The position numbers and the translations under genes are program-made. A DNA stretch of 64,000 nucleotides from Pseudomonadales bacterium (lineage in GTDB: Bacteria; Pseudomonadota; Gammaproteobacteria; Pseudomonadales; Azotimanducaceae): assembly GCA_028281005.1 (NCBI GenBank), contig JANQKS010000132.1, positions 62,001-126,000 on the forward strand, in the 5' to 3' direction. The notes beneath the pieces were generated by a model. The model saw only the letters and a program-made list of their open reading frames with translations. It had not been told where the DNA came from and did no database searches. This document shows positions 22,100-25,317 of this stretch, one piece after another (the first letter of the stretch is position 1; every line of letters starts with the position of its first letter).

Positions 22100-23029
22100 T
22101 TGGCTAAGTTAGTTAACGTTGGCTCGCTGTGCATTGATTTGGTGTATGGCGTGCCGACGATTGTGGCGGCGGGAGAAACCATCGCCAGCGGTGAGCGGCA
22201 GATTTTTGCCGGCGGGAAAGGCTTAAACCAGTCATTGGCGGCTGCCCGCGCCGGGGCGGCGGTCAGTCACTATGGTGCGGTTGGGGACGATGGCGACATG
22301 CTGCTGGCCGTCTTGCGCGATGAAGGTGTCGCGATCGACGGGGTAGTGAGTCTCGATGGTCCTTCTGGCCATGCGGTCATTCAGGTGGATGTGAACGGCC
22401 AAAACGCCATTGTCATCAGCCGCGGATCAAACCGGCGTTTAGATCCAGCATTGATCGATGCGGCCATAGACAATCTCGAAGCTGACGATTGGGTACTGCT
22501 GCAAAACGAAATCAACGACGTTGACGTGGTGATGCGTAAAGCCGCGGAGCGAGGCGTGGCCGTGGCATTCAACGTGGCGCCCCCAGATGAGCGCATCAAC
22601 AGCTACCCGGTGGAACTGTTGCGCCTGCTGGTGGTGAATGGTCACGAAGCCATGGCGTTAGCCGGTTCCGAATATGCCAACCCGGAGGCAGCTTTCGACG
22701 CGTTGGCGTCTCGTTGTCCAAATACTCATATAGCCCTCACTCAGGGTAAAGACGGGTTGAGTTTTCGCGATGCGGATCAGGGTAAGACGCTGTCGATGCC
22801 GGCGTTTGCTGTGCACGCGGTTGATGAAACCGCGGCGGGTGACGCCTTTGTGGGCTATCTCATGGCGGGTTTAGTGGGTGGAATGAGCATCGAGGACACA
22901 TTGATCCGCGCCAGCGCCGCCGGTGCGTTGGCGGTGACCAAAGAAGGTGCGGCGCCGTCCATTCCAAGTGCTGCCGCCGTGGATGAGTTGCTCAGCGCTC
23001 AAGCCGCGCCGGTCATTACGGAAAACTGA
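22100..23029 (+). CDS. PfkB/ribokinase family carbohydrate kinase
   Basis: FAGGKGLNQSLAAARAGA and DETAAGDAFVGYLMAGL; probable TTG start. Confidence 0.92.
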   Translation: MAKLVNVGSLCIDLVYGVPTIVAAGETIASGERQIFAGGKGLNQSLAAARAGAAVSHYGAVGDDGDMLLAVLRDEGVAIDGVVSLDGPSGHAVIQVDVNGQNAIVISRGSNRRLDPALIDAAIDNLEADDWVLLQNEINDVDVVMRKAAERGVAVAFNVAPPDERINSYPVELLRLLVVNGHEAMALAGSEYANPEAAFDALASRCPNTHIALTQGKDGLSFRDADQGKTLSMPAFAVHAVDETAAGDAFVGYLMAGLVGGMSIEDTLIRASAAGALAVTKEGAAPSIPSAAAVDELLSAQAAPVITEN

Positions 23030-23666
23030 GGCCCGTTACCGCGGCCAGATCATCAATTGCCTGCTGTTCGTTCAGCACCTTGATAGTGCGCATGCCAAGC
23101 GCTTTAGCGGGTTTTAGGTTGATGCCGAGATCATCTAAAAACACCGCGTGCTCGGTTGGCACCTGTAGGCGTTCACAGGTGAGTTTGTATATCTGCGGAT
23201 TGGGTTTGCGTATCCCCTCGACGCTGGATTCCACCACCAAATCAAACATCGCCATGACTTCCGCCACCGCGGCCGCTTTTTCCGCGCTGCGACTCATGCC
23301 GGGACCTTCACCGGCTTTAACATTGTTGGTGATGCACGCCACTTTAAAGTTCTGTTTGCAGATGCGCAGCACCTCAACCATACGCGGACGCAGATCACCG
23401 CTCAGCCTAGCAATCACTTCCCGCCCCGGAATCCGATGCCCACGTGCCTCAGACTCCTCGGCAAACATTTGGTCAAATTCGTCAAAGCTCACCTGGTTGG
23501 ATTCAAACTGCGCCCACGCGTTACTTTCGGGATTGGTTGCGTTGATGGAGCGGATGAAGTCTTGGGGTGCGCCGATGGACGCTTCCAAAACGTTAAACGC
23601 CTCAAACGGGCTGGTGGTCATCACCCCTCCAAAATCCCACAAAACCGCTGCAATTTGGTCGGACAA
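23016..23666 (-). CDS. HAD superfamily hydrolase
   Basis: VLWDFGGVMT, ITNN, KPNPQIYKL, VFLDDLGINLKPA motifs. Confidence 0.93.
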   Translation of the reverse strand: MSDQIAAVLWDFGGVMTTSPFEAFNVLEASIGAPQDFIRSINATNPESNAWAQFESNQVSFDEFDQMFAEESEARGHRIPGREVIARLSGDLRPRMVEVLRICKQNFKVACITNNVKAGEGPGMSRSAEKAAAVAEVMAMFDLVVESSVEGIRKPNPQIYKLTCERLQVPTEHAVFLDDLGINLKPAKALGMRTIKVLNEQQAIDDLAAVTGLSFP

Positions 23667-23816
23667 TCTCGGCTCCTCATCAGATAAACGTTAACGTTCC
23701 AATCCAGCTTGATTAAACCGGCCAGATTGGCAACATGCATATGTGCAATGGTGGTGAGTTGACTCACCGTGCTTGAAAGGGCGGAACTATAGGGCCTTAA
23801 GGCAGGGGATGGCAAT

Positions 23817-24053
23817 TTGACAGTAACAGACGGCCCCGAAGGCAACACCAAGCCGAAACAGCCGAGCCATGACAACCAGCGCAAGTTGTATCGCTTTGCG
23901 GTGGTGTTGTGGAGCTGTGTTGCGGTGGTAGCGTTGTTGGTGCCGTGGCCATACGCCCTGGTGGCGGTGCTGTTCGCCACCTTCTTGCATTTTGCATCCC
24001 TCGATGGGGATACGGCGACTCGGGAGTATGCAAGGCGCAAATTCGGACGTTAG
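23817..24053 (+). CDS. Small protein with predicted transmembrane hairpin, unknown function
   Basis: 78-aa ORF with hydrophobic FAVVLWSCVAVVALLVPWPYALVAVLFATFLHF flanked by charged termini; TTG start inferred. Confidence 0.5.
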   Translation: MTVTDGPEGNTKPKQPSHDNQRKLYRFAVVLWSCVAVVALLVPWPYALVAVLFATFLHFASLDGDTATREYARRKFGR

Positions 24054-24070
24054 ATTTTCGGGTTGTATTC

Positions 24071-24182
24071 GGTCTGGGGTGGCTTAAGCCGTTTCAGGAC
24101 CGCCGTGAACCCATCCATGGGGGCTGGCGCTGCGCCGTCCCTGGCGCAGAGCCTCCTGAAACGGCTTAAGCCACCCCAGACC
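24071..24182 (+). repeat. Long-stem palindromic element, copy 1 (29-bp perfect inverted repeat + 54-nt core)
   Basis: ggtctggggtggcttaagccgtttcagga at 24071-24099 is the exact reverse complement of 24154-24182. Confidence 0.97.
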
Positions 24183-24340
24183 TTGTGGTACCCAAGCGTC
24201 TGGTAGCCTTAGACGTGTAGCGCATACCCCCAAACCTTGGTCATCAATGAGCGTGATCACTCCAACCAAGCGAAGCTGTCGAACAGCCGCTGTTCTAAAG
24301 AAATCGCGATTCGACGCCCCCCAATTCCTGATCAACCTAA

Positions 24341-24452
24341 GGTCACGGGCGGGGCGTGCCTGTTCAGGAGGCTCCGAGCCAGGGATGGCGAGGCGCCAGC
24401 GTCCATGGATGGACTTGCAGCGGTCCTGAACAGGCACGCCCCGCCCGTGACC
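24341..24452 (-). repeat. Long-stem palindromic element, copy 2, inverted relative to copy 1
   Basis: ggtcacgggcggggcgtgcctgttcagga at 24341-24369 is the exact reverse complement of 24424-24452; core reverse complement matches copy 1 core at 42/54. Confidence 0.97.
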
Positions 24453-24508
24453 GACTCGATCGAAAAGATGTTAGACATGTCGAAACTAGATCTAACGGAA
24501 AAGGCTGG

Positions 24509-25195
24509 TCACCCACCCGCGGAAAACCTATAGCCGACGCCTCTGACAGTTTGGATTAGATGCGCCAAATCAAACGGCTGCAGTAGTTTGCGCAGCCGCA
24601 GCACATGCACATCCACCGTGCGTTCTTCCACATAGACACTGCGGCCCCACACACGGTCGAGTAGCTGGCTGCGGTCAAACACGCGCTCCGGGTGACGCAT
24701 AAGTAGCTCGAGCAAACGGAATTCGGTGGGGCCGATGTGTATGGGTTCACCGCGAATACTGACGCGATGGCTGTCGAGATTAAGGCTGATGTCGCCTGAT
24801 TCCAGCACGTTGCCTTCCGGGGCGCCGGTACGGCGTAGCAGGGCTTTGATGCGGGCCAGCAGTTCACGGGGTGAGAAAGGTTTGGTGACGTAGTCGTCGA
24901 CGCCGACGTCAAAACTTTTTAGCTTGTCACCTTCCTCGCCGCGCGCGGTTAACATGATGATGGGCAGGTCGGCGGTGAGTTCATCCTGGCGCATGCGCTT
25001 GGCCAGTTCCACACCGTCCATGCCGGGTAACATCCAATCGATGAGCACCAGTTCCGGCAGACCCTTGTCGAGCTTTTGCAAGGCTTGTTCGGCGGACTCC
25101 GCGGCGACCACGTCGTAACCGGCACGGCCGATGGTGAAGGTTAACAGTTCGCGGATATCCGGTTCGTCTTCTACGACCAATATGGCTTGGGGCAT
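24509..25195 (-). CDS. phoB: Phosphate regulon response regulator PhoB
   Basis: ILVVEDEPDIRELL, LIDWMLPGMDGVEL, VDDYVTKPFSPRELLARIKALLRR, OmpR-type C-terminus. Confidence 0.95.
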   Translation of the reverse strand: MPQAILVVEDEPDIRELLTFTIGRAGYDVVAAESAEQALQKLDKGLPELVLIDWMLPGMDGVELAKRMRQDELTADLPIIMLTARGEEGDKLKSFDVGVDDYVTKPFSPRELLARIKALLRRTGAPEGNVLESGDISLNLDSHRVSIRGEPIHIGPTEFRLLELLMRHPERVFDRSQLLDRVWGRSVYVEERTVDVHVLRLRKLLQPFDLAHLIQTVRGVGYRFSAGG

Positions 25196-25247
25196 AGGCG
25201 TGGCAGGATTGGCTGTGTTTCAGTGGGGCGCATTTAACCCCTTCATT

Positions 25248-25265
25248 ATGACGATTGCGTGACGA
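25248..25265 (-). promoter_or_regulatory. Candidate Pho box upstream of phoB
   Basis: Minus strand TCGTCAC-GCAA-TCGTCAT: two 7-mers at 11-bp period, 10 bp upstream of a TTAAAT -10-like hexamer (25232-25237). Confidence 0.5.
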
Positions 25266-25317
25266 TTTTACTAAGCACTTGCCCTCACGTCAGCAGGTCA
25301 GTAGTGTCTGCGCCTCA

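Follow-up and report, generated by a model that had tools for sequence, protein, structure and literature searches.

The two hairpins of the window

In the window (the whole 64-kb stretch of DNA analysed here), two 112-nt hairpin elements stand close together, each with its own arm sequence around a head of the same layout. The locus raises the question of what these elements are and how arms that differ between copies stay perfectly paired. The pair is well supported as part of a family of small mobile hairpins in Gammaproteobacteria, to which YPAL/RU-2 of Yersinia and TwoAYGGAY also belong.

Both copies were found where the preliminary description had placed them, with arms complementary at 29 of 29 positions and a 54-nt core in each (Table 1). 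When the whole 64 kb was scanned for inverted repeats (14 bp or longer, loop below ~110), only the two copies and one A-rich 15-mer were returned, showing that the copies lie far beyond chance. Two 116-nt stretches of the locus are 72% complementary to one another, as expected for members of one family in opposite orientation. Folded as RNA, the two copies reach -87.7 and -90.2 kcal/mol (z-scores -10.9 and -10.2), far more stable than shuffled sequence. The spacer is not part of the repeat, since host-genome matches to window positions 22900-25300 cover just the two elements and ~13 nt. No sigma-70-like promoter site was found in the 158-bp spacer. A T tract is absent after the stem of both window hairpins, and an intrinsic terminator was therefore rejected.

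Table 1. Features of the divergent hairpin pair (window positions)
Feature	Position	Strand	Remarks
Copy 1, 112-nt hairpin element	24071..24182	- (RNA, TwoAYGGAY orientation)	R1 121.9 bits
Copy 1, 3' arm (RNA strand), private sequence	24071..24099	-	29/29 complementary to 24154-24182
Copy 1, head hairpin 2	24109..24122	-	loop ATGGAT at 24113-24118; alignment A2 columns 61-74, pair counts
Copy 1, head hairpin 1	24126..24153	-	loop AGGGAC at 24137-24142; alignment A2 columns 30-57, pair counts
Copy 1, 5' arm (RNA strand)	24154..24182	-	pairs with 24071-24099
Copy 1, short upstream motif CTTGGGTACCACAA, just before the stem	24183..24196	-	consensus CTTGG.AAC..AA
158-bp spacer, 5' ends of the divergent pair facing	24183..24340	.	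non-repeated in the host
Copy 2, 112-nt hairpin element, divergent from copy 1	24341..24452	+ (RNA orientation)	R1 121.8 bits
Copy 2, 5' arm, private sequence	24341..24369	+	29/29 complementary to 24424-24452
Copy 2, head hairpin 1 (CCGAGCC/GGCGAGG, tandem G-A variant)	24370..24397	+	loop AGGGAT at 24381-24386; alignment A2
Copy 2, head hairpin 2	24401..24414	+	loop ATGGAT at 24405-24410; alignment A2
Copy 2, 3' arm	24424..24452	+	pairs with 24341-24369

A common head and private stems in the host genome

Further copies, for which the preliminary description had proposed a search, were readily found, BLAST with copy 1 giving 43 matches in the host genome (G000). A covariance model, R1, was built from 25 host copies aligned without gaps and recognised ~42 distinct places on the RNA strand of the host; with default filters it missed at least one patterned copy (L234), and its counts are lower bounds in places. 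The repeated unit is about 112-125 bp long, and nearly all inspected copies have near-perfect arms of 28-30 bp. The head reads GGCUCUGCGCC-ANGGAN-GGCGCAGCGCC-AGC-NNCC-ANGGAN-GGNN...GCGG and forms two hairpins. Neither the A column nor the GGA columns of the two loops vary among the 25 aligned copies. The covariation score is 0.693, as compared to 0.159 after shuffling. The upstream motif is weakly conserved across 31 host copies, and a related one, TGGCAC..GAG, was seen at the copies of G039, a genome of another family. Divergent pairs with their 5' ends facing are frequent among the copies of the host, of G039, of G041 and of S. maltophilia. On a rough, ORF-based estimate, the 3' side of most host copies lies at most ~75 bp from a gene border. 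Two host copies (L009:1310-1452 and L015:1733-1877) carry an extra hairpin between both head hairpins.

Between host copies, stem identity is 0.35, the level expected by chance from composition, as compared to 0.85 for the head, and the two identities are uncorrelated (r=0.006). All 25 aligned stems differ, and base pairs 8-19 counted from the head are Watson-Crick in 299 of 300 cases. The arms of different copies have just the outermost G-C and the inner TTTTCAGGA in common; MITE-type terminal inverted repeats common to copies are absent, the arms being private. Searched against the host, the 18-mer of the copy 1 stem matched its two arms and one further place with 2 mismatches, and that of copy 2 matched its own two arms only. 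As neither window stem has a donor, capture of the stem from elsewhere in the host was rejected.

Empty sites in relatives and the search for a mobiliser

Empty sites, also proposed as a check, do exist: five same-genus relatives lack the insert at this locus. In all five the HAD-type gene and phoB are syntenic, with the small membrane-protein gene between them in four, and a short spacer alone stands where the host has both hairpins. Gain of the pair in the host lineage is therefore the most likely history, and loss in the relatives a less likely one. A target-site duplication did not show, these relatives being too diverged (about 72%) for base-by-base alignment of the intergenic site. With the best 100 candidates per genome scored, 24 same-genus genomes yielded no R1 match, although the relative G026 does carry copies (see below). 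The suggested co-occurrence with RAYT/TnpA-REP did not hold: Y1_Tnp (PF01797) was absent from the host and from Y. proxima, both rich in copies, while the E. coli control was positive. No mobilising enzyme was found.

Range across Gammaproteobacteria

A degenerate pattern for head hairpin 2 alone, which carried no stem information, matched at least 119 loci. Among the matches listed, all come from Gammaproteobacteria, including Halomonas, Marinobacter, Microbulbifer, Stenotrophomonas, Shewanella, Rheinheimera, Idiomarina, Yersinia and other genera. At nearly all of 80 pattern loci tested, R1 recovered the head together with the outer stem. At the upper end, S. maltophilia SJTL3 has 120 matches and Marinobacter azerbaijanicus 134, some sites being counted on both strands. 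The family is almost absent from E. coli (5 of 5,426 genomes). Plasmids of wastewater E. coli, Klebsiella and Citrobacter (L310, L311) carry a single YPAL-type copy adjoining an iron-containing alcohol dehydrogenase gene. A phage origin was rejected, because the search of phages with the YPAL-type head returned no match and R1 confirmed elements in just 4 of the 13 viral records matched by the pattern.

The behaviour of the stems varies between genomes. In G039, six copy pairs show zero head differences together with stem identities of 0.45/0.20, as for random stems. In G065, stem variation comes in blocks with conserved stem blocks between them. In Arenimonas (G070) and in G046, copies have spread with the stem kept, and G070 has the same stems at unrelated loci. 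At orthologous sites of S. maltophilia, some hairpins are identical and others occupy the same position between conserved flanks but differ completely; one pair is inverted, and some stems carry several changes that are compensated, others single changes that are not. Several S. maltophilia stems are common to multiple copies, indicating that exchange between copies also occurs there. The helix of head hairpin 1 barely drifts within one genome and differs freely between genomes. Near the head, an A-G mismatch is conserved in G041, Yersinia and Halomonas, which shows that RNA structure is selected in these lineages too. Two local arrangements were also recorded. In the same-genus relative G026, a tRNA gene lies near three copies arranged in tandem (L060:993-1617), which repeat every ~257 bp and hardly differ in their stems. 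The divergent-pair spacers of S. maltophilia (L324-L403) contain another repeated palindrome, GGGGTCAGATCCGTTTTCC..GGAAAACGGATCTGACCCC, and TTGCTGTTGC repeats.

Pairing along the stem

With genomes pooled, base pairs 8-17 from the head are 97% Watson-Crick and 1.3% G-U, and G-U rises to 7.5% at base pairs 18-27 (p=6e-17). The ratio of G-U to A-C is 19:7 inside and 100:4 outside (p=0.001), the inner residue being less G-U-biased; both pooled p-values overstate the evidence, because related copies are counted as independent. S. maltophilia taken by itself shows a weak contrast, with 10 G-U of 640 inside and 20 of 556 outside. On the TwoAYGGAY strand of the outer stem half in the host, the departures from Watson-Crick pairing include 21 G-U and 2 A-C. 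Mutation alone would give about equal numbers of G-U and A-C. The large excess of G-U therefore indicates selection for pairing on that one strand, whether as RNA or single-stranded DNA. The contrast between the inner and outer stem can also reflect stricter RNA selection beside the junction.

How the arms may stay paired

The explanation that we consider best, and to which we give about an even chance, is that of a mobile family forming an RNA hairpin with CsrA-type loops, the arms of which are recopied by template switching. One arm would be repeatedly recopied from the other at the DNA level, through hairpin formation and replication template switching, and a mutation or patch in one arm would be either erased or copied to the opposite arm. 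The stem sequence would thus drift freely, and the inner ~17 bp would remain Watson-Crick. Selection, together with conversion between copies, would keep the heads alike. Read in the TwoAYGGAY orientation, the hairpin would act as RNA, with two GGA loops that may bind a CsrA/Rsm-type protein. That template switching can fix RNA stems, and also create them, is documented (PMC8794818). The inner stem of the host copies is as diverged as the outer one yet rarely found in an intermediate state, which fits such recopying of the arms. Against it stands the conserved A-G mismatch of G041, Yersinia and Halomonas, which unrestricted copying should erase. The weak inner-outer contrast of S. maltophilia, the uncompensated single changes and the stems common to several copies in that species, and the alternative of stricter RNA selection beside the junction also speak against it.

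The main rival to template switching is compensatory mutation. Here the elements would be a plain RNA family evolving by ordinary compensatory mutation under pairing selection, with gene conversion homogenising the head only. We regard this as possible but rather doubtful. The strong covariation speaks for it, as do the 100:4 excess of G-U over A-C in the outer stem, pointing to selection on one strand, the conversion and swapping between copies visible in S. maltophilia, and the A-G mismatch conserved in some lineages. It accounts poorly for a host inner stem that diverged as far as the outer one almost without G-U intermediates, for the unchanged heads beside random stems in G039, and for a hairpin-1 helix that barely drifts within a genome although it is free to differ between genomes. 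An unlikely alternative is that the stem is rewritten at mobilisation, each new copy receiving a new random stem through a foldback synthesis step. The 25 different stems among the 25 aligned host copies, the identical heads with unrelated stems in G039 and the missing donors for both window stems would follow naturally; however, the copies of Arenimonas and G046 spread with the stem intact, and orthologous S. maltophilia copies can retain identical stems. There is likewise a small probability that the element is a mobile hairpin without known transposase, in which dedicated foldback copying would supply a new private stem as the element spreads, giving each copy a paired barcode on a common protein-binding head.

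Two further readings start from the DNA into which the elements move or from the enzyme moving them. Insertion of the core into pre-existing palindromes such as terminators, the stem then being target DNA, is very improbable. It recalls the targets of YPAL, which are described as spanning or adjoining dyad symmetry (PMC2229807). However, motifs outside the stem are common to copies, the same stems occur at unrelated loci in G070, orthologous sites have different stems within conserved flanks, and the short spacer of the five empty sites leaves no room for a comparable palindrome. In addition, neither window hairpin is followed by a T tract, and both arm sequences are otherwise absent from the host, apart from the single 2-mismatch match of copy 1. 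REP/BIME-type elements mobilised by a Y1 (RAYT) transposase would also give palindromes in opposite-orientation pairs and at least 100 matches in some genomes. The absence of Y1_Tnp from the copy-rich host and Y. proxima, and the size of the element, 112 nt with a branched head, largely refute this reading for the host, and the chance left to it is minimal. Of the readings put forward in the preliminary description, a non-autonomous repeat with a conserved core and selection on pairing are both supported, insertion into existing palindromes is disfavoured, and rewriting of the stem or arm-to-arm conversion is the better choice. Overall, we retain recopying of the arms by template switching as the preferred explanation.

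A predicted CsrA-binding RNA

The GGA motif occurs twice in 25 of 25 host copies and in most others; two GGA are expected by chance in 22% of random 54-mers of the same composition. The head displays two ANGGAN hexaloops, 24 nt apart, on short stems, and these fit a CsrA/Rsm site, in agreement with the CsrA binding already predicted for TwoAYGGAY (PMC4333381). CsrA genes are present in 11 of 11 genomes tested. The hairpin is probably transcribed as a CsrA-type RNA, with predicted CsrA/Rsm binding by the GGA loops. If these loops bind CsrA, some genomes would contain tens of dispersed CsrA-binding sites. A literature search on CsrA with palindromic repeat elements returned nothing relevant. One of the two CsrA genes of the host lies ~550 bp past the right end of the window (G000:C65:126550-126702).

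Comparison with known systems

The preliminary description had recognised no named family; three turned out to be related, TwoAYGGAY (RF01731), YPAL/RU-2 and Ysr224 (RF02770). TwoAYGGAY has been listed in human gut, Gammaproteobacteria and Clostridiales, and as not cis-regulatory (PMC2864571; Weinberg et al. 2010). On the same strand as our elements, it has an outer stem and two hairpins with AYGGAY-type loops (AGGGAC/ATGGAT in copy 1, AGGGAT/ATGGAT in copy 2). RF01731 scored 44.5 bits on copy 1 (24063-24190, minus strand), above its gathering score of 43, but 35.4 bits on copy 2; only 2 of the 28 host matches exceed this cut-off. Repeat number, private stems and mobility were not found in the descriptions of TwoAYGGAY. 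In the same Rfam-type search of the copies, many human miRNA matches were returned, and were rejected as chance matches to a long hairpin.

As described in PMC2229807 and PMC2759123, YPAL of Yersinia is an intergenic, multicopy and mobile element of ~167-168 bp, with a target-site duplication given as 3-26 bp. The RU-2 sequence (De Gregorio 2006), as printed in Table 1b of PMC2759123, aligns over 102 nt with the Y. proxima copy L107, and the host-derived R1 detects this same copy at E=8e-9. The two-hairpin head, in sequence and structure, the outer stem and the intergenic multicopy mobile behaviour are thus found on both sides. The differences are of size and stem: YPAL is ~168 bp long, with a stem common to the two Yersinia copies compared, whereas the host elements measure ~112-125 bp and have private stems. 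Ysr224 overlaps the YPAL-type Y. proxima copy (L107:375-481, 94 bits) and the enterobacterial copy L310 (72.4 bits), and scores 18-19 bits on host copies. The overlap suggests that YPAL-type copies are transcribed in Yersinia. The Ysr224 model runs on the other strand from that of TwoAYGGAY, and a wrong or a second strand is thus possible for one of these two Rfam families. No source linking the names YPAL, TwoAYGGAY and Ysr224 was found in the literature. The three names appear to cover a single large family of Gammaproteobacteria, the matches of which exceed 100 in some genomes. The novelty of the elements lies in degree, not in kind, and we found no description of their stem behaviour.

CsrA-sequestering sRNAs of the CsrB/RsmY/RsmZ type also carry several GGA motifs in hairpin loops; in contrast, the family studied here has a long outer stem and lies scattered over the genome in dozens of copies, and its binding of CsrA is a prediction. 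The closest parallel to the proposed mechanism is with RNA hairpins maintained by template switching (PMC8794818), which likewise stay paired despite sequence change. There, the process was inferred for RNA genes between species, whereas here the contrast is between multiple copies within one genome. Dozens of near-constant heads with different, perfectly paired stems thus offer a within-genome test of RNA stem evolution, one that distinguishes slow compensatory mutation from recopying by template switching.
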